DNA of 64,000 bases from Peribolospora baueri (lineage: Eukaryota > Basidiomycota > Peribolosporomycetes > Peribolosporales > Peribolosporaceae). The position numbers and the translations under genes are program-made. Numbering within the stretch: the stretch's first letter is position 1; each line of letters begins with the position of its first letter. This document shows positions 27,628-50,700 of the stretch, piece after piece. The notes below the pieces were generated by a model that was not told where the DNA came from, ran no database searches, and saw nothing but the letters and a program-made list of their open reading frames with translations. Where the stretch lies: NCBI GenBank assembly GCA_029717555.1, contig JAMDHS010000074.1:33881-97880 (forward strand), in the 5' to 3' direction.

Positions 27628-28513
27628 CGGTGTTTGTTCCAGTCCACGTCGTGCATCCCGCTGGTTGGCAGGTTTGCGCAGACGAGTGTTGCGCCCGGCA
27701 CGTGACGTGTGAGCCCTGAGATAAGATCGACCGGAGATGTCGTCCACACGACCAGGCCAGACCCATCAGTTCCGAGGGCATTCCTCGTGGACATGCCGCT
27801 GATGAGAGGAGCACTTGGCTCGTGGAGCCTTTTGGCCCGGCATGGTCGTTCTTCGTTCCATTCCATGGTCGTCCTCCGTTCCACTTCATCGGATCTTCGC
27901 TCGATCCATTCACATGTCGTCGATCCGGCGTTGACACTTATTGCTTAGTCACGCACGTCCGCAGTCGGCTGCCGCAGCGTTTGTACTCACATTGACTGTA
28001 CCTGGCACGTGCTCGTCTCAGGCGCCTCGGATCGACAAGACGGCGACAGGAAGAGGAAGAACATTTCCGTAGAGAACGAGATTGCTGCTTCCATGTACTC
28101 GACGCCACCTTCAGCCTCCGTCGCGCTCACCATGTGGACCGCGCGGCCTCTCTCGCCCTGGTCTCGCCTCGGCGTGCTCGCGGTGCGAATCAAGGACGAA
28201 ATCCGATCGTGCAAGAAGAGCTTACGACGGATGCGGGTGCGTCCGGTGCAAAAGGAGTCTGTCTTTGACTCTCAGACATCATCGGCGACCTCTTTCCAAA
28301 ACAACTGCCTCCGCTCGCCAACCTTTGTTCTCTGACTCTTCTCTGGCTTCCATTTCGCCGGCTGCAAAACTCATCTTCCTTTTTTTTTTCCTCCTCCTCG
28401 TCCCCTCTTCCCGACTCTGTCTTCTCAGCTGATGCGTCTTGACTTCCCCCGCTAGTACCAGGGCCCCCACCACACGTTGAGCATCCCTTTGTCCCCTTCC
28501 TCTCCACCTCAGC
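27628..28513. promoter_or_regulatory. Divergent promoter region of APP1 and the amino-acid permease
   Basis: About 0.89 kb separates two divergent start codons. The APP1-proximal ~120 bp is open in frame with APP1 but has no ATG, so I treat it as 5' UTR. No repeat or RNA gene was seen. Confidence 0.55.
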
Positions 28514-30812
28514 ATGTCCAACGACTCGGACATCGAAAAGGAGCTCGGGGCGCGGCCCCATGACGCATTCAGCAGCTGGAACTACCCTGACGCTTTCGCA
28601 CAGGTCACCGTCAGCGAGCAGCCGGGTCCCGACGAGGAGAAGGCCGGTGTGGTGGGAGGAGACGTTGGTATCAAGGGGTTGGGCGGGAGTGGGGACGAGT
28701 CCGGCGTGAAGAGGCGACTCAAGCAGCGCCACCTGTCCATGATCGCGCTCGGCGGTACCATCGGCACCGGTCTCTTCGTCGGCGTAGGCGGAGCTCTCGC
28801 GCAGGCTGGCCCGCTCAACACGCTCATGGGCTACTCCATCATGGGCGCCGTCGTGTGGTCTATGATGGTTGCTCTGGGAGAGATGGCGACGCTCTTTCCC
28901 GTCGCCGGAGGATTCACTCACTACGCCACGCGCTTCATTGACCCCTCCATTGGTTTCGCCATGGGATGGAACTACTGGTACTCGTACGCGATCACCATCC
29001 CCACCGAGGTCGTCGCGGCGGCCATCGTCATCCAGTATTGGGACGTCAATCAGACGATTAACCCGGCCGCATGGATCGTGAGTCGCATAGGGTGTGGCGG
29101 ACGCAATACATCGAGCGAGCCAGCTGTCGGTCGCATTTTGATCCTCTCTCCCGTCGTCTCCCTCGTTATGCGTACGGATAGACCATAATGCTCGTCCTCG
29201 TTTTCGTCATCAACTTTTTCGGCGTGCGCTGGTACGGTGAGGCGGAGTTTTGGTTTTCCAGCATCAAAATCATCACCGTCATTGGCTTGATCCTTCTCGG
29301 CCTCATAATCGACCTCGGAGGCGGGCCCAACCATGACCGGCTCGGGTTCAGGTATTGGAAGCACCCCGGCCCCATGGCGCAAATGGACTACCAGATTGAC
29401 GGTCAAGGCAATATTAGTGAGCCTTCCTCGGCGAGGTACGCCTGTGCATGAATCGATTGCAAGGGCCAGGCTGATCTCCTCTTCGCATCGCCCCCCCTCC
29501 CCCCCTCCAGTCGACCCGGGCATCCCAGGCGCGAAAGGGCGCTTCCTCTCGTTCTGGAACGTCTTCGTCCAAGCCGCCTTCTCTTTCGCCGGCACCGAGA
29601 TCATCGGTGTGACGGTCGGTGAGGCGGAGAACCCGCGCAAGGCGGTGCCGAAAGCGATCAAGCGCGTGTTTTGGCGTATCCTGTTGTTCTACGTCTTGAG
29701 CATCTTCTTTGTTGGTCTCCTCGTACCTTACGTGCGTGTCCGTTTCTGGTACGAGACGAGGCGGGATTGCAGAGGATGGGCGGTCTGAGATGAACACGTC
29801 TTCGTCTTTTCTCCAGACGGACCCGCGCTTGCTCTCAAACACTAGCACCGCCTCAGCGTCTCCGTTCGTAATCGCGATTCAAGACGCGGGCATCAAGGTG
29901 CTCCCACACATCGTCAACGGCGTCCTCCTCATCACCGCCTGGTCCGCGGCCAACTCGGACATGTATGGTGAGCGAGGGAGTGGTGGGCGGAAGAGCGAAG
30001 TGCTGATGATGATAATGATGATCTTGCCGTCCCCTCAGCCGCCTCGCGAACAGTATATGCCCTTGCGCTCGAGGATAAGGCGCCCCGGCTGCTGCGCTAT
30101 TGCACCAAAGGCGGTCTGCCCGTCTGGAGCTTGGCGTTCACCGGCTCAATCGGCCTTTTGGCGTACATGCAGTGCGGAGCGGCGACGGCGGTGACGGTGT
30201 TCGGATATTTGTACGCCATCAGCTCCATCTCGGCCATCATCGCCTGGCTCGTCATCCTCGGCTCGTACATCCGCTTCTACCACGGCCTCCAGTACCACGG
30301 CATCAACCGGGACACGTTACCGTACAAGGCGCCCTTGCAGCCCTACGCGAGCTACTTTGGTTTCTTTTTTCTCATTCTTGTCATCCTCTTTTCCGGGTTT
30401 ACTGTCTTTTTGCAAGGACGTTGGAATACGGCGACGTTTGTTTGCACTTATATCACCATCCCTCTTTTCATCGTTGCCTGGCTCGGCTGGAAGGGTGAGT
30501 GAGCCATGATCATCATCTGGCCAAGCACGTCCTTACCTAACTGACCTAACTGACCTAACTGACCTAACTTGAACCGTCCATCCATCCCTTCCTCTCCCTC
30601 CATCTCTATCTACGCACACGCACACAGTATGGAAGCGAACAAAACTAGTCTCCCTCGCCGAGATGGACTTTGACACAGGCCGACGAAAGCTGGACGAAGA
30701 GGAAGAAGAAGAAGAGAAGAAGAAGAGGAGGGACGATGTGGAGGAGGTTGAGCGGCGTGGGGTTTTGCGGAGGAAGTCGCTTGTGCGTCGGTTCTTTGAT
30801 TGGCTTTTGTGA
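28514..30812 (+). CDS. Amino-acid permease, YAT/APC family (Gap1/Dip5-like)
   Basis: This is a plasma-membrane proton/amino-acid symporter with about 12 membrane spans. After a ~75-residue acidic N-terminal tail comes LKQRHLSMIALGGTIGTGLF, the family hallmark at TM1. Further family segments are FAMGWNYWYSYAITIPTEVV, FSFAGTEIIGVTVGEAENPR, AAWSAANSDMY-like TM7 residues and LPYKAPLQPYASYFG. Six exons (28514-29077, 29182-29416, 29511-29731, 29817-29967, 30039-30494, 30628-30812) give 603 residues. The C-terminal tail is rich in Glu and Lys/Arg and could be a ubiquitin-dependent endocytosis region (inference). Substrate specificity is not readable from the sequence. Confidence 0.9.
30536..30570. 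repeat. Four 9-bp cctaactga units inside a permease intron
   Basis: Intron 5 of the permease gene (30495-30627) contains almost four tandem copies of a 9-mer. Each copy carries CTAAC, the fungal branch-point consensus. Confidence 0.85.
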
Positions 30813-31555: not shown

Positions 31556-33781
31556 TCACTTCCTGCCGAACGCCCACCTCCTCCCCGTCTTCTCGTCCCC
31601 ACCGGACGTGAGCTGGTACCCGCCCACGGGCGAAGGTCCGCTGCGGCGGGAGACGGGAGAGCCTGCGCCGCGGACGTATCCGTCCCTGTTCTTCGACGGC
31701 CCGCCCTTGGGGCCCCAGAGGCTCATGGGGAAATTGTCGGCCTCGAGGGCGTCGACGATGTGGTTGCCAAGCCACATGCTGGGGAGCTCGACGACGATGT
31801 GGAAGGCGATGGCCGTGGGCACGACGCAGGCCAGGCAGACGATCCAGCCGACGCCGAGCAAGGTGGACTGGCCGTCGCCGCTGTTGCTCTGCAGCGAGGT
31901 GGCGACGGAGGGGACGACGGTGTAGAGGTAGGCGGGAGGGAGAAGGAAGAGGCCGGCGGTGATCTGAGCGAGTGGTGTTGGAATGAAAAGTCAGCGAACG
32001 ACGGTTGGAAAGAGCGAGAGACAGAGCGAGAGAGAGAGAGAGAAACTCACCTTGCCGAGGGACCTCATGACGATATTGCCAAGGACGAGCTGGATGGGGT
32101 AGGAGAGCTCGACGGCGAGAAGAACGCAAATAGCAAAGATCTGGTCGCTAAAGGCCATCTCGTGGTATCCCCTCACGTTCCAAGCGGCGAAACCGGTGTT
32201 GAGGCCCTTGCGGATGACGGGAACGAGCTGGACGACGAGGGCGATGACAACAAGAAGGATAGACAGCACGGTGGCTCGGCGCGTGCGCTCGCGAAGGGCT
32301 TGGAGGTGACCGTGGACGGAGAGATCGGCGATCCAGAGACCGACGAAGAAGGGGAAGAGGTAACTCAAGCTGGCCCAGCTGAAGACGGCGAGAGCAAAGA
32401 GGACCCAGTAGCGGTTGCTAGAGCGTTGGCCGAGCATGATGAGCGTGATGTATACAGCGTACGAGCCGGTGAAGGCCCAGGGCATGGGCCACAGGTTGGC
32501 GCCGAACGTCCAACCGGCGAGCGTGTCGTCAAAGTAGTAGGTGAAGAGGTTTACGACGAGGGTGAAGTAGCCCTTTTCGTTCCTGATCTGGTCCCATGCC
32601 GGCGGAAGGAGGCCGGCGGCGGAGGAGGAGCCGGTGTGACCGGCGGCGGCGAGGCCCCACTGGAGACCGGCGATGACGAGCACGGGGAGGATGAAGCGGA
32701 AGGGGCGGACGAGCATGGCGCGGCTGAGGACAGCGTGGAAGAGGGAGGTGGTGCGCGCGCGAGGGTTGACGGGCTGGAGGAAGGGCGCGGCGAGGGCGCG
32801 TCCGGAGAGGAGGAAGAGGAGGCTGACGCCCAAGTGGGTGTTTCTCAAGATGTACAGCGGGCTGTTGCCGTCGATCCACGACGGGCCGTTGGTCGTGCCG
32901 GTCCTCTTGTCGAGCGGGCCGGACGGGCCGGGGGTGAGGACGTCGAAGAAGGTGCCGTTGAGGACGAGCATGGCGGCGAGGAACTTGAGACCGTCGAGGT
33001 AGCCGAGCCGCCCGTCCTTGGTGGCCGAGCGAGGGTCGGCGCCGTTGGGGCCCATGCCGGCGGCGACGGCGTCACCCTCGATGCCGCCGTCGGTGGCGGC
33101 GGTGAACTCGGGCCAGCGGCGAGACTGACGGCCGGGAAGGCTTGAAGGGCGATGAGCGGCAGAGGAGGAGAGGCCCTCGACGGAGGGAGCGTTGCTGTCG
33201 AATCCGCCGTGCTTGTTCCTCAAGAGGCCGGCGTCGGTGTCACCGTCGATCGAGTTGGTGGCCATGGAGGGCGCGTAGCTGTCGCTGTTGTGCATGTGGC
33301 TCAACGGGTGGGCCATCTGACCGTTGTTCACGTTGCCAGGGCCCTGAAAGAGGGCGGAGTGACGAGGGGAGGGGCCGAAAGAGGGAGGCGGGGAGTACGA
33401 GTCGGCGCGACCGGACCTGGCGAAGGGAGCGTTGGGGTAGGCGTAGTTGGCGGACGCGCCAGCGGGGGCAAGATCGGACCTGAAAGAGGAAGCAGGGATG
33501 GGGGAAGAAGAGGCGTCTTGTTGGGGTTGGGGCTTGGTGTCGCCGACGGCGATGCTCGAGTAGCGGAGGTTGTGCTGGGAGTCGTACCTTGGCAAGCTGG
33601 ACTGAGACTGGTAACCGAAGGGTTCGCCTTGGCCAGCGGGGCGAGGGGAAGCGGGGCCGGTGGCCATGTTGTCGTTTTCTTCAGAGCGAGAGTAGCGGTT
33701 GGAGTCGAGATGTGCGGCGGAGTGGGAGGAGTGGGAGGAGGGAGGGGAGGAGAAGGGTTGAGGCGGGGGCTGGCTGGTCAT
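31556..33781 (-). CDS. Acyltransferase-3 family membrane protein, active-site residues diverged
   Basis: AT3 proteins are polytopic membrane enzymes that usually O-acetylate sugars on polysaccharides or lipids. Two exons (33781-32051, 31963-31556) give 712 residues. Residues 1 to about 255 are a disordered Ser/Pro-rich cytosolic N-terminus. The AT3 domain begins at RLGYLDGLKFLAAMLVL (Y261) and contains about ten hydrophobic helices, including VSLLFLLSGRALAAPFL and LFALAVFSWASLSYLFPFFV. The family normally has DGxRG in the first helix followed by a His. Here the Arg is Lys266, and the two positions matching His-His in the neighbouring AT3-GT2 protein are Gly-Thr. Activity is therefore uncertain. 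The gene shares strand with the GH26-like gene, and the start is the first in-frame ATG. Confidence 0.78.
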
Positions 33782-35025
33782 GGATGGACGGGCGGAGGAA
33801 GGGAGCAAGGCGGGGGGCGATAGGATAGAGCGAGGGCGAGGGAAGAGCGGGGTAGGGGGGGAGCAAGAGGCGTGGATGTTGCGGAATGAGGTGGTGGTGG
33901 AGGACGGGGATGGAGGGAGATGGAGATGGTGGTGGTGGTGGTCGCCGTGTGATGGTGGTCGGCGTGTTGATGGTGGTGGTGATCGTCGTCGTCGTCTCCA
34001 TCCACTCTGGCTGTCGACGCCTGCTCTCCCTCCCACCGCGTCTCGCCATCCCCTTTGCTCCTCCCTCCTCCGCACGCAGCGCCCGCCCCGATCTTCGACC
34101 CCTCGTCCAAGCTCGCCGCAGTCGATGCTGTCCCATCTCCGCGAACGCCCGTGGATCGCCGCCAGCCAGCGAAGTGTGTTCGTGTCGTCGGCGGGTCACG
34201 CACGGCCACGTTCATTTGTTCGTTCGGCAGTGTCAAGCAATTCAGTCAAGCTGTCAATCGATGATCGATTGGCCCGACGCTATTTTTGCTCCCTCCCCTC
34301 CCCTCCGAGACAGCCGAGACAGGAGGAGACCCGCCTCGGGGACGACACAGCCCCGCCCGATAAGAAAATAAAAGAGGAAGAAAAAGAAAAAAAAAATGGG
34401 AGCTAGCTCGTGCCACCGCCCACACGAAGATCTTCCCCCGTGTCTCGCCTCCCGTGCCTCCAAACCCGCGCGCGCGGCAGCTCGCTTCGACGCGAGGGGG
34501 CGCGCCGTCCCTTCCGTCCGTCTTCCGGATGCCGCAGCACTGCCACGCGCCAAGAGGAGTTGTCGACACAACACATAGACAAAAAAGAGAAAGAAAAATT
34601 GCGACGCCACTTCCGGCGCAAGGAAGGCCCCAAGCGGTGGAAGAGAACCAAGTGTCAAATGTGCAAGCATGCAAGCAAGCGAATGAGGACGGACAGATAG
34701 GACATGTGCTGCGATGCTGCACGCCTCCTTGACCGAGCGAGGCCGGCCGTCCTATCCTTCCTTTCCATCTTTCCTTGCATCTTTCCTTGCTTCCATCTTT
34801 CCATCCTTCCTTTCCATCTTTCCTTGCTTCCAGCCAGCCAGCCTTCCAGCCTTCCTTCCTTTCTTCCTTCCAGCCAGCCAACCAGCCAACCAGCCACCCA
34901 CACATCAAATCAGATCAGGTAGATCAGACCAGTCCGAGCGAGCAAGCAAGCTAATGCGAAAGCAAAGTCGAAATCGTCTAGTCATGAAGGACTGCATGTG
35001 GCCCAAGGAGAAGGAGAAGAAGGAG

Positions 35026-35050
<25 letters not shown>
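35026..35050. repeat. A(25) homopolymer
   Basis: A run of 25 consecutive A residues follows a gaagga-rich stretch. It could be a length-variable nucleosome-excluding poly(dA:dT) element between two cluster genes. Confidence 0.9.
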
Positions 35051-35056
<6 letters not shown>

Positions 35057-35150
35057 TAGCACTGACGCGACGCGACGCGGGTCTGTCGATCGAAAAGAGT
35101 TCGGTATGAGTATGAGTAAGGTCCAGAGAACCTTGTCCGAGCGCGAGCGA

Positions 35151-35228
35151 GTCCGAGTCCGAGTCCGAGTCGGAAGGGAACGAAGACGACGAACGACGAA
35201 CGACGAACGACGAACGACGAACGACGAA
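35151..35228. repeat. Tandem gtccga hexamers and cgacgaa heptamers
   Basis: About 3.5 copies of gtccga (35151-35171) are followed, after a short spacer, by about six copies of a cgacgaa-type heptamer (35186-35228). Confidence 0.85.
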
Positions 35229-35837
35229 AGGAGGACGAATGGACGGACGAAAACAGTCTCATCGACCAAACACATCCATCGAGCAATCTCACACGACCCG
35301 GCCGAACACACGCTCGCACGAGCCTAGTCCCCACCCTCTCCACTCCACAGCAGAGAAGGGGACCGCGCAATTCCAAAGTCCATCAACAGTCCATTACAGC
35401 CGTCGTCATCGAATCGAGTCGAATCAGATCGGATCAGATCGGATAAAATCGGATAAAGTCGTGGGGAGATAAGCGTCCCTAAACAGAAGAAGAAAAAGAA
35501 AAACGCAGAATGGAGGGAAGGGGAGGAGGACGTGGGGGGAAGACTAAGAAAGGGTCGGGGTACGGGTGGAGTGTGGGGGACGTATGGACGAGTGCTAACT
35601 GACTGACTGCGAGAATGTGGGAGACAGCGCGGGATGGGACGGGGAGACTGCCTGACTGACTGATGCCTGAAGGGACCGAGGAAGATAGGCGAAAAGAGAA
35701 CGAACGGAAGAAGGAACGATGGCGCAAGGAAGGACGGCGAGTTCTACACGACAGAGGGACGGAACGGAACGGAAAGGAAAGGAAAGGAAACGTTCGAAGG
35801 ACGCGAATGGACGGAGGGACGGGGGACGGAGGATGGA

Positions 35838-37441
35838 TCACCGTGCCACGAGCTCCGCGCCGAGGGTGACGCCGACAACGAGCGCCGAGGCGACGAGGGC
35901 GACGGGCAAAGACGCTGTCCAGCGGGGCAGCGACCCTCCAAACAAGCTCGGCGGCGTCGGTCCGGTGGGCACCGACGAGGTCGGCGTCGACGGTGTCGAG
36001 CCGTCCGCGTTGGTGGGCAAGTTCGTCGGTTCCGCCGGCGAGGCCCACGCGTAGCGCGTGGCGACGGGGTCGAGGCTGTAGAGGAAGGATTGGAGAACGG
36101 CCGAGTTGTTCGTCAGGCGGTAGTCACGCAAGTCGTTCGGGTCCTCTGTAGGCGGCGCGGCGAAGACAAAAAAAATCAGCGGCGAGCTCGGTCCGGCGCG
36201 ACCGGTCGTCACTCACCGACTTTCTCAAACTCAAACATCATAAACATCTTAAACAGCGGGTAATAATCTAAGAAACTCGAGTTAGCAATTCCGTTCTGGA
36301 TCCAAGCCGTCTGCAGGGCGAGCTGGCCAGGGCCCGGGGGGTCGTTGACGTGCCAGGCGGATCCGGACTCGGAAAAGGCGCACGGCTTGCCGTACTGGAC
36401 GCAATAATTGTTGTAAAGGTCCGTGAACTGGGTCGTCGGTTGGGCCGCATTGGCGAGGGTGGGAAAGTTGACGCCGATGAGCGCGCCCCAGACGTCGCCC
36501 GGGTTGGAGAGGGTGTTGTCCAAAAAGGGAGACGCGGTGCCTTTGTAGTAGTACGAGATGGCGCACCAGTCCACGTATTCCTGTCCTGGCCAGAAGGGCA
36601 GATAGGCGTCGTCGGCCGTATCCAGCTGGCCGTCGTGGTTGGTGTCCAAGGCGGCGAACTCCTGCTGGGCGGAGTAGGCGTCGGTGGAGGCGTTCACAAC
36701 AGCCTGAATGGCGGGCATGCCGATGCCGTAGGGGTACCCGGGCGAGGCGTTGGGGGCCCAGACGATGGCGACACTGTCGCCGGTGATGTTTTTGACAATG
36801 TTGTACATCCTCTTCCACTGGTCGACGTACTGGAGCGGCATCGGCGACCACGCCGGGTTCCAGTTGCCGTTCATTTCAGGGGCCCAACGCAAGTAGACGC
36901 GGCGCTTGGCGTGGGGGTTGGCGGTCGTGTTGGCGATCGTGTTGGTCCATCCGAGGAGCTGGTTGCCGAGGTCAATGAGGTCCTGGTCGGCGATGGTCTG
37001 GTTGGTGATGCCTTTCATAGGATAGACGGTGAGAAAGATGCCGGCGTCGGTTTTGCTGTTGAGGATGCTGGACACGTTGGCGATGCCGCCGGCGCCAGTG
37101 TTGTAGTTGTATGGAGTGACGGGAATGTCCTGGCTGAGCTGGAAGACGCCGGCGTTGCGACCGAAGCGTTGATTGAAGGCGGACGGGGTATCCTCGTAGC
37201 CTTGTTGCATGTCGAGCCAGGCTCCGAGCCATAGCTGACCGTGGGGTGGAGCGCCGATGGCCGAATCGACGAGGGATTCTGGGTCTGCGACGGCCTGGCC
37301 GGCGACTCCTCGGGCGACTAGGCCGACGACGGTGGCGACAAAGGCGATGCGACAGAGTGCGGCGGACATGGAGCGGGGTAGGCGACGGCGACTGGGCCGT
37401 CGGCGAGACGGGGGTGGGGTCATATGGGAGGAAGGCTCCAT
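35838..37441 (-). CDS. Secreted, probably GPI-anchored GH26-like glycoside hydrolase
   Basis: GH26 enzymes are mostly endo-beta-mannanases, with some xylanases and lichenases. Two exons (37441-36217, 36145-35838) give 510 residues. A basic N-terminus precedes a signal-type hydrophobic segment (CRIAFVATVVGLVARGVAG); an internal Met25 would give a shorter, classical signal peptide. GH26-like segments are WLGAWLDMQQGYEDTPSAFN, LRWAPEMNGNW (candidate acid/base Glu189), GQEYVDWCAISYYYKG and CAFSESGSAW (candidate nucleophile Glu358). Residues 266-278 (DTNHDGQLDTADD) form an EF-hand or dockerin-like calcium loop. The C-terminus has a Ser/Thr/Pro-rich linker and a final hydrophobic segment, as in GPI-anchored proteins. 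Several NxS/T sites are present. It lies between two sugar-modifying membrane proteins, suggesting it trims the same glycan. Confidence 0.72.
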
Positions 37442-37540
37442 GGGAGCCGTTGGGGCGGGAGGGAGAAGGGGAGGAAGGGGTATCTAGCGATCTCGCCGAA
37501 GGAGTCGTCGAGTCGAGCACCCTAGCGGGCGACGGAGAGC

Positions 37541-37568
37541 GGTGGTGGTGGTGGTGGTGGTGGTGGTG
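37541..37568. repeat. (GGT)9 microsatellite
   Basis: Nine GGT units lie about 100 bp upstream of the GH26-like start codon. Confidence 0.9.
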
Positions 37569-37881
37569 ACGGGTGCCGAAAAAAGACGCGGGCTGTGTGT
37601 GGCTTCGTCTGGCCGTCGGTGTCGGAGACGGATAGCTGCGATCGTCGAGGTCGATGAAGAGCCGTCGCGTAGTGAAGGGTTTGGTCTTCCCCCTTTCTTT
37701 CTTCCTTCCTTCCTATCTTGCTTGCTTGCTTGCTTGCCCGCTTGCTCTCCTTCAGTCCTTCTTTTTCGCGGGCGGGTGGAAGGTGTGCTGGCGAGAGCGC
37801 GGTGGGTGGCCGGCGGTGGGGAGGGGATGGAAGGGCGGGCGGGAGCGGGAGCGCCCGGGGGAGAAGGAGGAGGAAGGGGGG

Positions 37882-37941
37882 GCGAGGGTAAGGGCGAGGG
37901 TAAGGGCGAGGGTAAGGACGAGGGTAAAGACGAGGGTAAGG
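37882..37941. repeat. Five 12-bp gcgagggtaagg units
   Basis: Three perfect and two slightly diverged 12-bp units lie in the divergent control region. They may be regulatory (a repeated protein-binding site) or simple slippage products. Confidence 0.88.
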
Positions 37942-38991
37942 GAGGTGGTCGGTGGAGGGGAAAGGGCGAGAGAAGGGAGTGGTGGCCCGCTCTCGATGAG
38001 ATCGACGAGGAGGACGTGTGCCGTGTGCGAGTGTGGCTGTGGGTGGCTGTCTGGCCCGCCCGTCCGCGTGTCAGTCTCCGTCGCCTCGCCTCGCCTCGCC
38101 GCGCGCTCGCACCTGCAAGCCATCCCTTCTCCTCGTCCATCTCCCCGACCACCACTGCCACGTGAGCGCACACGCACGTGACTCAGCCGCGCCCCGCTCC
38201 TTGGCGATCTACGGGAGTAGAAAATAAAATGGCAATCAGCGCCGGCCATCCGACCATCGTCCGCCATCGTCGGCTGTGCAACGTTTCGTGGTTTTTTTTT
38301 CCTCCTTCGATCCCAATCGATCTCCACGGCGCCTGCCCTACGTCAAGCGACACGTTAGTTTAGAGCGCGGTCCGGTGGGGCGAGGGACAAGGAGAAAGGA
38401 GAAAAAAGGGATGCGTTGCGCATCTTAGTGACATCCATAGTCACATACCCAAGTGCATCCGCCCGTCCTTAGTCCAGACACTTCCGGCGTGAGGTCGACG
38501 TCCTTCCGTCTCTTCTTGTCTGTTGTCGCAACCGCAGCCAGCCGTTCGAGCCGGCCGGATCGCCAAGCCACAGACGGCGACGCGACGTCCGAATCGAATC
38601 TCGCGCGACTGCATCTCATCCATCTATCAAATCTCCCTCCACCACCTGTCGTTCGTCTGTCTGTCAGTCAGTCGTAGTCGTACTCGTACTCGTACTCGGC
38701 CTCCGTCACCAGTCAGCAGTCCCATCCGCTGTCCCCTCTCCATCCCCTCCATCCCCTTGCGTCCTCGCCTCTTCCTCCGCCTGCCTGCCTGCCTGCCTCG
38801 TCGCCGCTCCACCCAACCATCGTCCCTCCCTCGCCTTCCTTCCTCCTCGCCCGCTTTCCATCCCCGCCACCACCACCAGCTCTCGTCGACGTCGTCGCCC
38901 AGACCAGACCAGACGAGACGACGACGACGACGACAACCCTTCGCTCCACCACCATCCACCCTCGCAGCCCCTTCGCGGGTGCCCCCCAGCC

Positions 38992-41900
38992 ATGTCCCAG
39001 CCCTACGACCGTCGCCAATACATACCCCCAGCCATGCCCCAGCACGGCCGCCCCGCCAGCCAGGTCGCCAGCCCGTCCTCGGCCAGTTACGACCATGGCC
39101 GCGATCTCGCTGACCATGACCTCGATCGCCAGTCCCTCGAGCTCCATCACCCCGCCGGCGCCGCCGACGCCTACGCACCCCTCTCGTCCCCCGCAGAGTC
39201 CGATGGCTTTCTTCCCCAGCCTCGCGCTCCCTTCGCCCAAGAGCATGGCAACTACCGCTCCATCCCAGATCGCTCCCCCGACGTCTCCGCCCCTCCCTCT
39301 CGCACCCCGTCGCCCAGCCACCACCCGCTCTCCGACGAATCGGCACAGGGGCCCATGGCCCCCTACCCCGTCCAGCTCAACCAGACCCGACGCGATACCG
39401 GCGGTGCCCAGAGCGACTATTCGGACGCCTACGCCTTTCCCACCAGCGACGCCAGCCACGTTCGCAGCACCAACACTTCTACTCTTGTCGGCGGCAGCGG
39501 CTCCGACGAGACGCCTTACGACGACGAAAAAGACGCCCGCGCCAACACCAACGCCAACGGCGTCCACGTCATCCACGCCGGCCTCGCACAGGCTCACCAC
39601 GGTCGCGACCTAGCCCCGCGTGCCGGCGGCAAGCCTCCTGGCCCCGATGACGCCCTCCCACCGCCTTCCAAAAAGTCCCAGGCCGCCCCGCTCGTCAAGG
39701 CGAACCGGACCGCCTGGATAGACGGCATTCGCGGCATCGCCTCCGTCGTCATCTTCACTCACCACTTCTCCGACCTCACCTGGAGCTCGATCATGCCCAA
39801 CACCCTTCCCCCCGGCTCCCTCGGCGGCCTTTTCAGGAATGGTCAGCTCGCCCTCGCTATGTACTACCTCCTCGGCGGTCGCGTCCTCGCTGTCAGCTTC
39901 CTCCGCAGCGCCTTCAAGGCCAAAGCCCTCGCCGAGGCTGCCTCCACCGAGCCCGGCGGCTTCGAGGGCGGCACCGTCCTCGCCACCATCCCCACCGGCC
40001 CCAGGGATTCCATCGTCGCCGACGGCTCCTCCGCTTACGGCGACCATGGCAGCCCCGCCTACCCCAACACGCCCCTCACCCCTACTTCGACCATCGGCAG
40101 GCACTCGGCCACCTCGGACGCACCCAAGGAGCACGAGAAGGGCCTCGTCTCACCCGCCTTCGTCGGGGTCCCCAGGCCGTTGGATCAGCCCCGTTGGGCG
40201 ACGTTGAGCAGCTCCATCTTCCGCCGCTCCATCCGTCTCGCCGTACCCGCCATGGCCGTCGGCCTCATCCAGTGGCTCCTCGGCGCCCACAACGCCCTCG
40301 GCGACAAGGCTATCGAGGCCAGCACCCAGTTCCTCCACCCCTCCGACCTCTGGGCCCCCACCTGGGGACAGATCGGCAGCTTCGCCGGCTTCCTCCGCTT
40401 CTCTCTCGGCCTCTTCACCAACCAGAACCACACCGAGATGCTCACCTTGGGCGCCCAGCTCTGGACCACCTACGACCAGTTCTGGGGCTCCATCATGGTC
40501 TACATCCTCGCCACCGCCGTCGCCTTCCTCCCCGCCCGCAGCAGGTACAGCGTCTACGCCGCCGTCGTCGTCGTCCTCTGGTGGATCACCAGTCCCAACT
40601 TTCTCTACGTCGTCGGACTCGCCATCTCCGACGCCTACGCCGCCGGCTACGTTCGCAAGATCCAGGACATGTGGCACCTCACCTTCCTCCTCGAGCTCTG
40701 CTTCATGACCCTCGCCCTGGCCTTCATCATCGGCGGCGGAACGGTGGCCACGCCCGCCGACTCGTACATCTCCCAAGTCACCGTCTACGCCGGCAAGTTT
40801 GGCTACGACCAGTCCACCACCTGGCCCCAGGAGATGTACATGTCCAACTGGATCCCCACCGTCATGGCCTTTTGCTGGGTCGAGCTCTCCCACGCCATGC
40901 AGTGGCTCTGTTCCTGGCGCATCTTCACCTGGATGGGCAAGGTCGCCTACGGCTTCTACCTCATGCAGTTCATTTCCCTGTATCTCATCGTGCCGCCCCT
41001 CGCCCTCTACTTCCATAACCACGGTCGCAGCTTCTGGGGCGCCATCATCCCGACGTACATCATCACCCTCCTTTTCAACTTTCTCATGGCCTGGCTCGCC
41101 TACCACATCTTCGACCGCACCGGCCTCAAGCTCGGCAAGGCGGCCTGGGACGGCCTCTTCATGTCCAAGGCCACCGGCGGCGGCGACTTTTTCCACATGC
41201 CCGCCAGGCTCGTCCGCTTCCTCGTCGACTACGTCATCCGCCTCCCCGGCCGCGTCGTCCGCGGCACCGCCAAGTCGTTCGTCCAAAAGGGCAAGGCCAC
41301 CAAGTCGTTCGTCCACACCGTCTTCAACTGGCGCACCCTCGTCCGTCGTCCCCCGCCGCGCATGCCGTCCACCCCGGACGAGCTGGCGGAACTCTACTCG
41401 ACCGCGTGGACGAGCGACCTGAGCAACGACAAGGAGGCGGTGCGCACCGCCAAGCTCCTTCGCTTCCAGTCCTACTCGTGGATCATCCAGATTTGGCTCA
41501 TCCCCGCCATCACCATCGTCTGGGTCTGGTTCCACCCCACGGGCAACTGGACGTGGGACGCGTTGACCATCTCGTCCCTCTGGCGTTTCATGTGGGTCCT
41601 CGCCGTGCCCAACTGCCTGGCCGCCTACCTCGGCTTCATCACGCCCGACACGTCGCTGCCCAAGAAGGACCAGGACAAGAAGCCGGTCCACCGCGAGTAC
41701 ATCCGCAACTTTTACATCGCCCTCGTCACCAAGGGCTCCAACGAGGTCGCCGTCCGCCGCGGCTACCAGACGCTGGAGAAGCTCGAGGTGCACCACCCGG
41801 CCATCAAGACATACGTCTTGACCGACGAGCCGTACGCTTACCCGGATCTCAAGAACATCGTCTGTCCCAAGTCGTACAAGTCGGCCCGCGGCCTGGCCAA

Positions 41901-42750
41901 GTACAAGGCGCGCGCTCTTGACCACTTCCGGGTGTTCATGAAGCTGAACGAGTTTGACTGGGTGCTCCACATGGACGAGGAATCGATCACCGACGCCGAG
42001 TCGGTGCGCAGGATGTTCGACCTGATCCGCTACACCCCGCACCACTACGCTCAGGGCATCATCCTCTACAACGGCGAGGGCTACTGGAAGAACTGGTACT
42101 TCACCGTCGCCGACGGTCTTCGCGTCGGAGACGACCTCGCCCGCTTCCACTTCCAAAACACCGTCATCAACCGGCCCATCTTTGGCGTCCACGGCTCTTT
42201 CCTTCTCATGAACGGCGAGGTGGAGAACAACGTCACCTGGGACTTTGGCACGCTCGCCGAGGACTTTGAGTTTTCTCAGGAGGCCTGGAGGCAGGGCTTC
42301 ACCGTCGGTCGCGTCCACGGCATCGTTCGGGAGCAGAGCCCGACGACGCTGCCCGACTTTCTCAAGCAGCGACGCCGTTGGTTCGTCGGCATCCAGGCCA
42401 TCAAGGGCGTTCACGGTTTCCCGCACCTGGCCATCAACCTGTGGATCGTCGGCGTGTTCTGCCTCGGCGCGACGCTCATCAACATTCCTTTTTCTTTTGT
42501 CGACTACTCCCTCACGCCCTTTTGGATCGCCGTCTGCGCCGACTTTTCCCTCGCCACCTTTGAGGTCCTCTACCTGTGGGGCCTCCTCTTCCAGGACATT
42601 GACGCCGGCGTGCCCTGGTACTTGACCGTCATCCACCTCCCCTGCGCCGTCGTCATCCAGCCCTTCGCCGCCATCTCCGAGGGCCTTGCGGCGATTTGGG
42701 GTATGGCCTCGGAGGGGTTGCACACGTTCGACGTCATTGTCAAGAAGTGA
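38992..42750 (+). CDS. Acyltransferase-3 / egghead-like GT2 glycosyltransferase fusion
   Basis: A single intronless frame of 1,252 residues. Residues 1 to about 240 are disordered. An AT3 domain starts at AWIDGIRGIASVVIFTHHFS (W242) and keeps the conserved DGIRG Arg and the following His; about ten helices run to about residue 715. From about 870 (YSWIIQIWLIPAITIVWVWF a little before) the protein becomes a processive-type GT2: IRNFYIALVTKGSNEV, the Asp motif WVLHMDEES (D995), NTVINRPIFGVHGSFLLMN, AEDFEFSQEAW (E1090/D1091) and LKQRRRW (1124-1130), followed by C-terminal helices. The GT2 half resembles animal egghead beta-1,4-mannosyltransferase. Likely role: polymerise or transfer a mannose-type sugar and acylate it, in ER/Golgi or plasma membrane (inference). 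Codon use is extremely C-ending, suggesting high expression. Confidence 0.82.
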   Translation: MSQPYDRRQYIPPAMPQHGRPASQVASPSSASYDHGRDLADHDLDRQSLELHHPAGAADAYAPLSSPAESDGFLPQPRAPFAQEHGNYRSIPDRSPDVSAPPSRTPSPSHHPLSDESAQGPMAPYPVQLNQTRRDTGGAQSDYSDAYAFPTSDASHVRSTNTSTLVGGSGSDETPYDDEKDARANTNANGVHVIHAGLAQAHHGRDLAPRAGGKPPGPDDALPPPSKKSQAAPLVKANRTAWIDGIRGIASVVIFTHHFSDLTWSSIMPNTLPPGSLGGLFRNGQLALAMYYLLGGRVLAVSFLRSAFKAKALAEAASTEPGGFEGGTVLATIPTGPRDSIVADGSSAYGDHGSPAYPNTPLTPTSTIGRHSATSDAPKEHEKGLVSPAFVGVPRPLDQPRWATLSSSIFRRSIRLAVPAMAVGLIQWLLGAHNALGDKAIEASTQFLHPSDLWAPTWGQIGSFAGFLRFSLGLFTNQNHTEMLTLGAQLWTTYDQFWGSIMVYILATAVAFLPARSRYSVYAAVVVVLWWITSPNFLYVVGLAISDAYAAGYVRKIQDMWHLTFLLELCFMTLALAFIIGGGTVATPADSYISQVTVYAGKFGYDQSTTWPQEMYMSNWIPTVMAFCWVELSHAMQWLCSWRIFTWMGKVAYGFYLMQFISLYLIVPPLALYFHNHGRSFWGAIIPTYIITLLFNFLMAWLAYHIFDRTGLKLGKAAWDGLFMSKATGGGDFFHMPARLVRFLVDYVIRLPGRVVRGTAKSFVQKGKATKSFVHTVFNWRTLVRRPPPRMPSTPDELAELYSTAWTSDLSNDKEAVRTAKLLRFQSYSWIIQIWLIPAITIVWVWFHPTGNWTWDALTISSLWRFMWVLAVPNCLAAYLGFITPDTSLPKKDQDKKPVHREYIRNFYIALVTKGSNEVAVRRGYQTLEKLEVHHPAIKTYVLTDEPYAYPDLKNIVCPKSYKSARGLAKYKARALDHFRVFMKLNEFDWVLHMDEESITDAESVRRMFDLIRYTPHHYAQGIILYNGEGYWKNWYFTVADGLRVGDDLARFHFQNTVINRPIFGVHGSFLLMNGEVENNVTWDFGTLAEDFEFSQEAWRQGFTVGRVHGIVREQSPTTLPDFLKQRRRWFVGIQAIKGVHGFPHLAINLWIVGVFCLGATLINIPFSFVDYSLTPFWIAVCADFSLATFEVLYLWGLLFQDIDAGVPWYLTVIHLPCAVVIQPFAAISEGLAAIWGMASEGLHTFDVIVKK

Positions 42751-43588
42751 CGTCCCTCCTCCCCTCCCTTTTCTTTGTTTCCGGGTTTTCTTTTCTTTTT
42801 CCCCGCCGCTCTGCCGGCTCTTTTCGTGGACCTTTGGAGATTTTCTCTTTGCCCTCGATACTACGATGGACGGACGGTTTCGGTTCCTTTTTCCATTTTT
42901 TTTCCGTCTTGTGTCACCCATTCTACCGCTTCTCCCCACCCGTACACTCGCGTCTTCTTCTCCTCATTCACCACATGTCTATCTATCGTCTATGTTTGTC
43001 TGTCTGGTGCCTGTTCGTTCGTCTGTCTGTCGGTCGTCCTTCGGCCCCCTTGCTTTCTTCTCCTCCTTCTGTCCCTCTCTACGTCCATCTCCTCCTTAAC
43101 AGAACACTCTCTCGTCCCTCTCTGAACCGGCTGCCGTATTTCCCTGTTTCTCCGTGTGTCGACCAATCGATCGATCGATCCGATCCTTGCATCTTCATGA
43201 TGTCAGATGTCAGATGTCTGTGTGTCTCCTTTGCCCTTGGCGAAATCGCTAAATGGGCCGTGGGCAGATCTGCGAAGCACACGAACGGTGTGGGAAGAAA
43301 GGGAGGGAGGGCAACTTGGACATGGCTTGAGCGGTCAATTGAACCGCTTCGCTCGGTCTCTCGCTCGCTGACTTGGACTTTGACTGTGAATGACTGCGGC
43401 GGAACATGATCGATCGGATGATGAGGCGCGAAACGTAACGTCGTCGGACGGACGGACAGACGGATGATCATCATCCGGATCGTCTGTCCTCCTCCTTTTT
43501 TTTTTTTCCACTCGACAAAATCGCAGCGGCGCCCACGAGCGAAGTAAGAAGGAAGGGCGCTTTGAAAAGGAAGTCAGAAGGAAGAAAG
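42751..43588. other. Intergenic region between AT3-GT2 and the G-patch gene
   Basis: This is the 3' UTR of the fusion gene (very T/C-rich, about 42760-43130) and the promoter of the next gene. A short (gatc)n run occurs near 43167. It marks the right border of the putative locus. Confidence 0.5.
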
Positions 43589-46500
43589 ATGTCCGGATCG
43601 TCGTCGACGACGGCGGCGCGCCTCTTGCGAAGGCTCGAGGACGCTGGTGCCGATGACGCGCGGTTGGCGAACTTGACGGAGAGCTTTTGTATGGTGAGCA
43701 AGTGCTGTGCGGTGCGGAAGGAAGAAGGAAAGGGATGCGCTCATTTATCTTTTGTCTCGTCTTTCTCTTCTATCCTTATTTCTATACTTTTCTTTCCTTT
43801 TATTTCCTTTTATTTCCTTTTATTTCCTTTTATCTTCACTAACGACGTACAGATTGGCACACCCCTCCCCGCCCTCGACTCGTCCAAACGAGACGCAAAC
43901 GAGTACGAGCCGATATGGAAACAAGAAGTCCGAGACGAGAAGGGTCGTAGGAGGTTTCATGGTGCTTTTACGGGCGGCTTTTCGGCTGGTTATTTTAATA
44001 CTGTTGGATCTGTTGATGGATGGACGCCTGCTTCGTTCAAGAGCTCGAGGGCTGACAAGAAGGACAAGGAGAGGGCGAGGGAGAGTGGGAGGGAGAGTGG
44101 GAAGGGAAAGGTCGGATCGAGGCCGGAGGATTTCATGGACGAGGAGGACCTTGCGGACTGGAGGGAGAAAAAGACCTTGGAGGCCACCGCCGACGACCGC
44201 GACCGCGACCGCGCTGGATCATCGGACGCCGACCGCCTCGGCTTTGGCACGCTCGGAGAGTTGCAGAGCAGAGCTGTTCGCGACGACGAGTGAGTCCGTC
44301 ATGGGTTGACAGGCGTCGTCGTCGTCGCTTCGCTTCTTTTTGACATCCTTCTTCCTCGCCGCCTTTTCAGGTCCCTCGACAACAGCCTCGCAGATATCGT
44401 CGCTCCCGTCTCTTCCGGTCTCGGCGTTCGTCTCCTCCGTCGCATGGGGTGGAGAGAAGGTCAAGGCCTCGGCCCTCGCGTGTCCGCCGCCAAGCGCACG
44501 GTCATGCGCCGTCAACTCGGTCTCCCATCCGACTCTGGAGAAGATGAACACGGCGAAGAGGAGAAGAAGCACCTTTTCGCCCCTCCCGACACCCCGCTGG
44601 TCGTCTTTACCTCCAAAGACGATGCCGTCGGTCTCGGTTACAACAGCGGCCCCCGCTTGGTCGATCTCGTCCGCGAGCCATCCCCTTCCCGCCCGACCAA
44701 GGGACCGGCTGGGGCTGGGTCCAGGAGAGGTGAGCTAGTGTCCACGTTCGCCGCCACCTTCATCCACTCTCCCCTCATCGCTTTCCTCTGGCTTTCCCGT
44801 CACTACCAGACGCGTTTGGACTGAGCGTATTCGAGGATGCATCCGACGATGAGGACATCTACTCGAGCACGGCTCGGCCGACGGACGTCACAGATCGTCT
44901 CGGCAGCGCCCCATACGGTCCAGGCATGTCCGTCGACGACGACGACGGCGACGTGCTTCGCTTCGGGCGTCATGGCAGACGAGATGGGGCCGAGCGAGGG
45001 AACCGGATGGATCGGGTGAGTCTCCATCGTAAATCTACGATTCCAGGTGTGTTTTCTTTTTTTTTTTTTTCACTCGACACTCATTCTGATCTCTTCCCTC
45101 CTCAACGCACAAGCACGGAGAAATTCCCGCAACGTTCCACGACGGTCGGCCCGTCTTGCGAGGCTTCGTACTCGCTTCCAAACCCGCACCGCAGCAACCT
45201 TGGTTTGAGCCACCGAAAATGCCCAACGGCTGGAGGCCGGATCCTCAGCGATTATGGGAGATGGCGAAAAAGGCAAGACGAGAGAAGGAAAACGTTGCGC
45301 CTGGCGTCGTGCCTGCGCAACGCGCCTCCAACGATCAAGCGTCTCAACTCGGTCCAGACGAGAGAGGCGCTATCCTCAGAGAGGCCAAGCTGGAAGCACC
45401 CCCTCGGTCCGTCTTTCAGTATCTTTCCCAGAAGGATAAGGACCGATTGGCCGCCTTGGGGCGCCCGTCGTCAACGCCGCCACGCGGCCGCGGGCATGGC
45501 CCGCCCGGACCGCCACCGCCACCGCCAGGGGGGGCCCGACAGCTCATCAGCCCCGCTGACGTGCAAGTACCTCGGACCGATCCTGCCACCGCTGCAGCTG
45601 CTCTGAAAGGCTATATGCCGTTCAGCGATGACTTGATCAAACAGGCACGATACAAGGCCTACCTCACCTCTCAGGCCAATCCGCCGCCCTCCGACCCGGA
45701 AACGGACAGGCCCCCACCGCTGCCTTTCTTCCCGCCCCCATCAATGAAGCTGGAAGAATTGCAGAGAGAGCTGTCCGACTTTGCCAAGAGCGCCGCCATG
45801 TTCCGGCCCATCAGCAGCATGATGGCCAGCCGATTCACGACGGCCACCACTGAACACGGAAACATGGACGGCAGAGTTCCCCAGGCGGGCCTTCACGTCC
45901 CTGATACCGCCGCCGAAGCTGCTCGTACGGCCACGGCTGATGGCAAGCCATCGGACCGGCTGCAGCCCGCGAAGGAGGAAACGCCGCGGGAGAAGGCGGT
46001 GCGCGAAGGAAACTTTGGCCCCCTCACCCGCACGGTCAAAAACATTTACCCGGTCCGACTCTTTTGTAAGCGCTTCAACGTGCCGGACCCTCATCCGGGA
46101 GGGCCTGAGGTGGAGGACGAGGACGAAGGCCCTGGTTTCCAGTTTGGAGGCGCCAAGGCTCAGGCGGCCAGTAAAGGCGGTGGCGGTCGAGGCGGTGCCA
46201 GACACGTGGACGATTGGAAAGGCGGCGTAGAGCGAGAGATGCAGATGGCCGCTGCCAACCGTAGTTGGCAGGCCGCGACGCCTTCGACGGGCATGGCTGG
46301 CCAACTCGGCGGCGGCGGCGCTCCATCTTCCTCAAGCGCGACGCCTTCCAAGGAGGGCACGCCGACTCTGCTGCCGACGCTCGCCAACGTCGGTCTCGGC
46401 GATGACGAACTGCAAGGGCGCGACATTCTCACGTATGAGAAGCCAAGCTTGGACATTTTCAAGGCCATCTTCGCCGACGAGGACGAGGACGAGGACGAGG

Positions 46501-47719: not shown

Positions 47720-50700
47720 TTACGAGAAAATGGCGCCGCGCATCTTGGGGATGGGATAGACCAGCAGGGAAGAGAAGAAAAGGCCGACTATATCGGACGC
47801 GAGACGAAATAAATATGTAAGGTAGGCGTTTGGTTAGCGCCGGCTTCGTTTTGTCTGAGACTTGATCAGATGGCTCAAGAATGGACTAGAGATGGCTGTC
47901 ACTTACCTGTGATGCCAATTGCAACTTGTACCATGCGCATACCAATCTGCAGGCCGGAAGAGAAGCTCTCGCCAGATGAACTGCCAGTGGTCATGGACAA
48001 ACCTCCAGCGACAGCAATGCCTAGCCATCATCGAAAGGGGAAGGACGACCCAGGACCCATAAGTATCGAGATATACTCAGGAAAAACGAGACAGATGCTC
48101 TTGAGCAGCTGCCTTGGCAGCTCTGAAACTCACCACTTGGCACAAGTACAAGCACAGCAGTGGCCATGGAAGGGAAGGCAGAGCCACGCCCAAAGCGAGA
48201 GTAAAGATTTCCGAGAATGCCGATGACGAAGGAGCCGACGGCGCTGACGATATCCGAGCGGTTGGGCAGCAGTTGAGTGACGCCAAAGTTAGCCGCATAG
48301 CCGGCACACGAGATGACGAGCATGACGGGGAGCTTGAAGGACGGAAATGAAAGGGGTGCATGGCACAGAGGTGTCAAATGAGGCTCGGCTACCACAAAGG
48401 TCCATGAACAGCGGACTGGATGGCATGCTCACCTGGCGAGACATAAGCTGCTGCTTGTTGAACAAGCTCAGGAAAAGCGCGAACATGGGAATGAGGATGA
48501 ACAAGAACCACCTCGAGACGCCTTGGTGGTACCACGGCCAACTGGGATCACGGAAGCAGACGACATTGCCAGCTTCGAGACCGGTATCAGTACCGTTCTT
48601 GAAGCTGAATATGCCGCTGCCCATGCCTCCAAAGGGGTTGACAGTCGAATTGTCCGGTGTGAAGGTGCCTTGGATGGTAACGGGTGCGCTGGAGCTCGAG
48701 AGCGCAGCCTGTTGGGCGGTGGGCGAGGTCAAGGACGCTGGATAGATGGCTCCAAAGACATCCGAGCCGATGGCCAGGCCGAAGCCGAGGAAGAGACTGT
48801 AAAAGATCGCGTAGAGCAGTCGCACGGAGCCGGATACTATGCTCTTCGAAGCCAGCTCAAGAGCGCCACACACTAAGAAACGTTAAAGCAAGACAGACTA
48901 CGTTAGCAACTCGCCACGAGCTTCCTCTGTGGACACTAGTCGAGATGCACTTACGAATGATGTAGCCGGGGAGGATCAAAACGACACCGCCGGCGACGAC
49001 GCTCTCGTAGCAGAACATGCCGGTGGCGGAAAGGCCTTTGGAGGCGAAGGAGACGAGGAAAGCGGCAGAGATCTCAAAGACGTTGGAGAAGAGCGGGTTC
49101 CGAGCTGCGAGCGTCATTTGCAGCACGACAACGCAAGCGCCGAGGGCGGAGGCCATGAACATGTCGATGAAGCTTCCGGAAAAGGCGAATCCGGAGACGA
49201 AGAAGCTGCAGAGCGCCCCGAAGACGCAGGTGAGCCAGATGGGATATGGGTCCTTGCGCTTCATGACCTCCTTAAGGGCCTCCGCACCCTCCGCGGCGTG
49301 CATCTTATCGTGAATTACCTTGCGATAGACTGTGTGGATCTCTTGGAGTCTGCCAAGGTCGAGTCCTCCGGAGGACTGCTTGACGAAGTGGGTCGAGCTC
49401 GTGTGCGTGTCCTGGTCACCAAAAGCGATGAGGAGTACGTTGGGCAAGTAAATGAACTGTGCGTCCAGCTCAAGCACTCTCGCCGTCGCCGCCAACTGCG
49501 CCTCGATGCGGTGGGTGGGAGCGCCGAACATCATGAGCGCCCTTGCGAGGCGGATAACAAAGTCATGTCGCTGGAGGATGGCAGCGATGTGCATGGTGAT
49601 GAAGATCTCTTGCTGCCTCTTCTTCGACTTGGACTTTGAGCCCTCTTCCGGAGTGTTCGCCCCCGAACGGCTCGGGTAACCGCCCGCCTTCTCGAGGTCC
49701 ACGGAAGAGGGCGCGTGTAAGCCGAACATCTTGTTCATCGGCCAGAGAAAATGGCTGCTACCCTTGTGCGCCAGCGGAGACCGGTGGTCACGCAAGCCAC
49801 TGCTGGCGCCTTCCGCAATGAGGGTGGGCGTGGCTGAAGCAAAGCTGTCTTTGGTCGAAGTCGGGTGCAAAGCGCGAGTGGCGGCGTGAGCCAGGTTGGC
49901 GACCGACTGCGAAGGCGAGAGCGAGCCGACACGAGCGTGACGTCGTTCTTCTTCTCCGGCGCCAGTGTCCACCGACGTCCTGGGCAGACCAAGTCGACTT
50001 GCGCGCTGAGTTGCAGTATCACCATACGAGTACCGGCTGAGCTTGTAGCCAGGACGTTTTGGGGCCGGTCCGACGCTGGATGCCGACGGGGTCGCAGGTC
50101 CACTGATGTTTCCGGTTGCCGCGATCAAAGCGCTCAAGCTGGGAGTGCTGGAATGCCGAGAATTCTTCAGACTGTGGGAGGCGATGTGCGCTACCTTGGC
50201 TCCCGCATGTTCTGCGTTCTCGGCCATGCCGGCGGCCGTGTGCACGATGGAGCGGGCGCCTTTGGCTGTGATGTCAGAGAGATCGGTCATAGATGGAGTC
50301 TTCTTGTGCAAGCCTTTTCGGCCGATCGCTGTCGCTGTCCCTTCGCCTCCCGCGTCTTCGCTGGTCCGGCCACGGTTGCCCAAGGGTAAAACGGCGGACA
50401 TGGGGCGCCGAGCGCGTTCCCTATTTGGCGTCTCAGCTGACGACGCATTCGGGTCGTCGTTGAAATAGTCGCCCGACGACGTCCCGCCTTCGGGGATGGG
50501 TGGCGTGGACGTCGGTGTCGTCGTGTTGCTCAGCAAGCCGCCGGTACTATCGACGCGTCTCAACGACGGCGTGTTGCCACCTCTGTTCGACGGCAGGGGA
50601 TACTTGGCCAAACGCTCGCGTTCGCGCTTCTGGGCGAGTTTACCAAGCGTCGTGACGCTGTCGCCTTCCGCGCTTCTGCTCCTGAGACCGGCCAAGCTGG

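Follow-up and report, generated by a model that had tools for sequence, protein, structure and literature searches.

Three genes in the Peribolospora baueri window

The window analysed here is a stretch of 64,000 nucleotides from the basidiomycete Peribolospora baueri (GenBank assembly GCA_029717555.1, contig JAMDHS010000074.1, positions 33,881 to 97,880 of the forward strand), and its positions 31556-42750 hold three protein genes, here called A, B and C, which we assembled from the sequence and whose coordinates were confirmed. Gene C (38992-42750, + strand) is intronless and encodes a protein of 1252 residues in which an acyltransferase-3 (AT3) domain is fused to a glycosyltransferase family 2 (GT2) domain, as judged by Pfam, homologues and the predicted fold. 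Gene B (- strand, exons 37441-36217 and 36145-35838) encodes a protein of 510 residues (486 from the second Met) that homologues and a predicted fold assign to glycoside hydrolase family 26 (GH26), and gene A (- strand, exons 33781-32051 and 31963-31556) encodes an AT3-like multi-pass membrane protein of 712 residues, recognised by homologues and a profile match. B and C lie head to head with their starts 1550 bp apart, and the stretch between these divergent starts (37442-38991) may be a shared promoter; the start of A and the stop of B are separated by 2056 bp. The introns of A and B are of the GT-AG type and were deduced from reading frame and homology, not from RNA. As the best relatives share 42-59% identity with the three proteins, chance open reading frames (ORFs) are ruled out. 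An NCBIfam search gave no useful match. The initial annotation of this DNA, which had described three adjacent carbohydrate-type genes, was right in outline, in coordinates as in domains. The most striking of the solid points are the wide distribution of the AT3-GT2 fusion, the affinity of the GH26 protein to enzymes for mixed linkages and the conserved replacement of the AT3 His in A.

Gene C encodes a widespread AT3-GT2 fusion

Relatives of C occur in Pucciniomycotina (rusts included), a dacrymycete, a smut relative, chytrids and Blastocladiomycota, the best being 59% identical (over the 1023 residues searched). The GT2 domain scores 95.1 bits (Pfam cut-off 27), and the AT3 domain (PF01757) scores 18.7 to 22.5 bits in the window protein, under the cut-off of 31; the same AT3 model is found at E <= 0.001 in 34 of the 39 aligned members of the C family. 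By the span of the profile match the AT3 half covers roughly residues 234-728, and by the span of the structural matches the GT2 half covers roughly residues 827-1245. The N-terminal half is homologous to the AT3 family (PF01757; OafB, OatA) and keeps R247 and H258, spaced as R14 and H25 of OafB, along with the pair R412/R415 of the RxxR motif that is a hallmark of AT3 proteins. R14 and H25 are the essential AT3 residues of OafB according to an excerpt of PMC9833829. In C, the domain is joined to a GT2 domain instead of an SGNH domain. The AT3-GT2 fusion noticed at the outset is thereby borne out, with the GT2 domain above its Pfam cut-off and the AT3 Arg and His retained.

In the GT2 half the D, ED and QxxRW motifs are invariant in all 39 rows, and the predicted fold, with its C-terminal helices, resembles those of cellulose synthase (BcsA, CesA), hyaluronan synthase, CslF6 and the PcManGT mannosyltransferase. 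C differs from these membrane synthases by its N-terminal AT3 fusion and by low identity (8-13% to BcsA, CesA, hyaluronan synthase, CslF6 and PcManGT). The list of structural matches is filled by GT2 entries. Searches of the organism's own genome (a 22.14-Mb assembly of 178 contigs) matched C only when the whole protein was used, and C plus seven other, weaker places when the GT2 family model was used alone. In quick trees, the AT3 half of the window protein branches outside the other Pucciniomycotina (support 85) and the GT2 half groups with Calocera (support 95). The egghead connection made in the initial annotation comes down to the name 'egghead protein' that one source gives to one relative (P0002). 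Among open-licence papers on the fused enzyme or on exopolysaccharide (EPS) genes, no listed title or abstract opening mentions an AT3-GT2 fusion.

Outside the fungi, viral contigs encoded a C relative in none of 30 candidate stretches, and a collection of prokaryote genomes in 2 of 36, both relatives covering the GT2 half only. One, on a cyanobacterial metagenome-assembled genome (L014, 5206-6507), is a stand-alone GT2 protein of 433 residues, 38% identical to C, with the motifs HLDEES, EDYEFS and QRRRW; inspection by eye revealed no AT3-like ORF on its 8.1-kb contig. The second (L015) is 26% identical.

Gene B is closest to GH26 enzymes acting on beta-1,3 and mixed linkages

The 17 matches of B come from Pucciniomycotina, Calocera, a Chytridiales isolate and unnamed sources, the best being 42% identical (over 93%). 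B itself has no GH26 match in Pfam, and the GH26 family model found nothing in the own genome at E <= 1, B included; PF02156 (GH26) is matched at E <= 0.1 by 10 of the 18 aligned B rows and is precomputed in 2 of the 17 matches. In the own genome the first exon of B matches itself only. The predicted fold of a relative, P0052 (43% identical to B), is of the GH26 type. Its best match is AlXyn26A (24.2), followed by lichenase entries (23.2 to 22.0), Xyl4 (22.8) and, as the first named mannanase, an entry at 20.2; ranks 1-9 are GH26 by title or name, and rank 10 is 6zpl_C, a complex entry without GH26 in its title. All 18 rows have Glu189 and Glu358, which would act as acid/base and nucleophile, respectively; on this modelled fold B is a GH26-type protein with both catalytic Glu residues.

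The profile search against solved chains ranks Xyl4 first (1.6e-8) and AlXyn26A next (6e-7), and chains named mannanase reach 0.017 or weaker. The residue that precedes the acid/base Glu is Pro in B and its relatives (18/18 rows), Tyr in Xyl4 and AlXyn26A, and His in 6hf2 and 6q75, entries whose names say GH26 only and which we take to be of the mannanase type, a His at this place presumably being the hallmark of GH26 mannanases. Given the two rankings and this Pro, B lies closer to those GH26 enzymes that act on beta-1,3 or mixed linkages than to the mannanase branch. Its best structural and sequence matches, AlXyn26A, Xyl4 and the CtLic26 lichenase, share both catalytic Glu with it; B is set apart from them by an EF-hand-like insert, a tail resembling a signal for a glycosylphosphatidylinositol (GPI) anchor and its fungal origin, and from Xyl4 and AlXyn26A by Pro in place of Tyr. 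AlXyn26A cuts mixed-linkage xylan and beta-1,3-xylan oligosaccharides and Xyl4 only continuous beta-1,3 linkages, as an excerpt of PMC12706835 has it.

A plain beta-mannanase was considered for B and ruled out by the fold and profile rankings and by Pro where the mannanase-type chains have His. With it falls the earlier argument that GH26 implies a mannanase and hence the linkage made by egghead: the nearest GH26 enzymes act on xylan with mixed or beta-1,3 linkages and on mixed-linkage glucan. B is still compatible with a beta-1,3/1,4-mannan, but mannose is not singled out.

B begins with a hydrophobic segment of the signal type and ends, by eye, in a Ser/Thr/Pro-rich and then hydrophobic, GPI-like tail that recurs in most aligned rows. 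The prediction of a secreted GH26-like hydrolase holds for the fold, as modelled for the relative, and needs amending for the location: from this tail, B is probably anchored at the surface rather than freely secreted.

Residues 266-278 of B, shortly before a conserved PGxxYVDW, form an EF-hand-like DTNxDGxxDxxDD loop within the GH26 domain, encoded in the first exon (36217-37441) and not known from other GH26 proteins. Its first Asp and its position-12 Asp are kept in 18/18 rows, Pfam EF-hand matches are weak, and the loop may bind calcium. The relative from Chytridiales sp. JEL 0842 (P0055) is a 753-residue protein with two tandem GH26-type units and an EF-hand-like loop in each. None of 14 candidate stretches of viral contigs encoded a B relative.

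Gene A is probably a non-catalytic paralogue of the AT3 half of C

A has 28 matches, the best 49% identical (over 86% of the part searched), and the relatives whose names we recognised are presumably all Pucciniomycotina. A has no Pfam match of its own, the AT3 model reaches E <= 0.1 in only 2 of 22 aligned rows (window A and 21 of the 28 matches), and the A profile gave no match at E <= 10 among the sequences of solved structures. It does join the AT3 half of C (hhalign probability 100, E 1e-41, 397 columns), and in the own genome part of the first exon of A matches itself and C (E 9.6e-9), and nothing else. In that profile alignment Asn-Gly-Thr of A stands opposite Thr-His-His of C, so that the position of the essential AT3 His is Thr in 22/22 rows; the essential Arg is Lys in 20/22 rows (window A included) and Arg in the other 2. 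The RxxR pair (R359, R362) is invariant in the 22 rows and H490 is kept in all of them. An AT3 tree parts the 22 A rows from 38 C rows as two separate groups (support 100; quick method, midpoint root, long branch between). Given the conserved replacement of His and Arg, A is probably an old, conserved, non-catalytic paralogue of the AT3 half of C, that is, a pseudo-acyltransferase. The initial annotation, which had A as an acyltransferase-3 protein, was correct about the homology, as the profile match to C attests, and probably not about an acylating role; an ordinary AT3 enzyme is ruled out by the replaced His and Arg.

Three records of A relatives (P0069, P0082 and P0090) carry Ras/Rho-type domains and are perhaps gene models merged with a neighbouring Rho3-like gene.

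The neighbourhood is partly retained in other species

Shared contigs in other fungi were deduced from equal size of the longest contig, which stands in for gene order, in species picked by name. By this measure the pair B-C falls on one contig in 2 of 7 species, A-C in 3 of 10, and A-B in 0 of 3; some of the misses are weak, since the cluster concerned merges several strains (R. toruloides, P. graminis) or the contigs are short (Austropuccinia). Calocera cornea, with a contig of 89,913 bp, and Meredithblackwellia, with one of 3.96 Mb and a weak case on account of that length, presumably have B and C together; for A and C the species are Microbotryum, R. paludigena and Mixia. The locus numbers of A and C differ by 60 in Microbotryum (MVLG_00037, MVLG_00097) and by 180 in R. 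paludigena, so the two are not neighbours there even though they share a contig; the locus names RHTO0S01e13850g1 for A and RHTO0S04e02630g1 for C put them on different scaffolds in R. toruloides. Conserved co-location, fixed beforehand by the initial annotation as a test of the grouping, was thus indicated in part of the species and not in the rest. The pattern is consistent with genes that were neighbours in an ancestor, became scattered in most lineages and stayed close together in this genome; chance may also account for it.

A tentative pathway for an acylated surface polysaccharide

We tentatively propose, at a little less than an even call, that C synthesises a beta-linked surface polysaccharide, which it also extrudes and O-acylates, that B trims this polymer and that A is a non-catalytic partner, the product being of mixed beta-1,3/1,4 linkage with beta-mannan favoured. 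BcsA-type GT2 synthases build their chain at the cytosolic face and extrude it. The cytosolic GT2 domain of C, with its predicted cellulose-synthase-like core and membrane helices, could likewise polymerise a beta-linked glycan and pass the chain across the membrane. On the outer or lumenal side the AT3 domain would supply an acyl group drawn from acyl-CoA, most probably acetyl; with both domains in one protein, the chain would be acylated on leaving. The cellulose systems of bacteria and KORRIGAN in plants provide precedents for a glycanase, at the surface or in the periplasm, that accompanies a synthase. A GPI-anchored B would be an endo-beta-glycanase for mixed beta-1,3/beta-1,4 linkages that trims or remodels the product of C. 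A, with its His lost, its Arg mostly lost and RxxR kept, may be a dimer partner or an acyl-CoA-binding subunit of C. The bacterial ica locus has a similar set of roles (IcaA a GT2 enzyme, IcaC of the AT3 family, IcaB a surface deacetylase); GT2 and AT3 are separate there and one polypeptide in C, and IcaB is a deacetylase where B is by homology a glycanase. The mannosylerythritol lipid cluster of ustilaginomycetes shares the theme of mannose and acylation, with different enzyme types. According to an excerpt of PMC9833829, the membrane domain of AT3 proteins is believed to give acyl-CoA access to the outer face, the location of His25.

As to the product, the evidence points to mixed linkage in general more than to any one sugar, beta-mannan being possible. 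The relationship of B to enzymes for beta-1,3/1,4 linkages fits a red-yeast mannan or a mixed-linkage glucan alike. An excerpt of PMC9315203 speaks of an R. mucilaginosa mannan that has both beta-1,3 and beta-1,4 bonds, the sugar make-up of Rhodotorula EPS differs by strain in the part of PMC12153088 consulted, and the terms GH26, GT2 and egghead are absent from the excerpt of PMC8355462 on red-yeast mannan.

Several observations weigh against this proposal. PcManGT, which we take to be non-processive with a minimal cellulose-synthase-like fold, ties for the best structural match of the predicted GT2 half, which leaves polymerisation by C putative; the C profile found no match at E <= 10 among the sequences of solved structures. 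The AT3 His is absent from three C relatives with intact GT2 motifs, P0029 from Calocera cornea (Ala) and P0037 and P0040 from Paraphysoderma (Gln and Ser), which means that not all members of the family can acylate; inactivation of the AT3 half may have happened on more than one occasion. In the B profile search 6hf2 ranks fourth (5.3e-6), close behind the xylanases. Rusts, which are not known as EPS makers, keep C. Co-location fails in 5 of 7 species for B and C and in 7 of 10 for A and C, some with short contigs. Finally, the EPS of R. toruloides, the source of C relative P0009, is reported at 88.8% glucose in an excerpt of PMC12628781.

A rather unlikely alternative is that the neighbourhood is due to chance or is a relic, A and C being close through an old duplication and B standing between them by accident, with no single pathway. 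The unequal contigs would be expected on that account, as would the separate scaffolds of R. toruloides and the gap of 60 locus numbers in Microbotryum; against it, the Calocera relatives of B and C are on contigs of the same 89,913-bp size, B and C are arranged head to head, and such closeness is improbable in a 22.1-Mb genome. In a second explanation, which we hold to be unlikely, the same machinery makes a mixed-linkage beta-1,3/1,4-glucan or another glucose-rich polymer and B is of the lichenase type. More doubtful still is that C is an egghead-like, non-processive enzyme for an acylated glycolipid or lipid-linked oligosaccharide, with B unrelated or acting on its product. The name of P0002, PcManGT with its minimal fold as the top structural match and the spread of C relatives over many fungi speak for it, whereas QxxRW, the GT2 core and the C-terminal helices are as in BcsA, hyaluronan synthase and CesA, although the motif is no proof of processivity. 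That A is a working acyltransferase whose catalysis relies on residues other than the AT3 Arg and His is very unlikely, since its conservation (28 matches), RxxR pair and H490 are met by Thr at the profile-aligned His position in 22/22 rows.

Should C, B and A act together as we propose, C would be a candidate gene for the enzymes that make the mannan-type EPS of red yeasts, the three genes would represent a wall or surface glycan system common to rusts, red yeasts and early-diverging fungi, and C would be a natural fusion of synthase and acyltransferase that has a conserved pseudo-enzyme as its partner. For R. toruloides EPS, gene candidates were found by keyword and sequence similarity, according to the excerpt of PMC12628781. 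In its most far-reaching version, which we regard as speculative and improbable, the proposal describes an undescribed fungal pathway core for an acylated mixed-linkage beta-1,3/1,4-mannan, with a polymerising and acylating C, a dead AT3 subunit A and a GPI-anchored mixed-linkage trimmer B; the synthase (chytrids, Blastocladiomycota) would be older than the B-C pair, the pair would predate the split of the basidiomycete subphyla, A would have been added in Pucciniomycotina, and the set would since have been scattered in most lineages.

Flanking genes

The genes on either side of the block are unrelated to it, as had been remarked earlier: an amino-acid permease on the left (ORFs 28481-29188 and 29972-30502) and a DUF1604 protein on the right (ORF 43439-44293). 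Further to the right, the - strand at 48857-52123 holds a stop-to-stop ORF of 1088 residues whose C-terminal part carries a ThrE threonine/serine-exporter domain.

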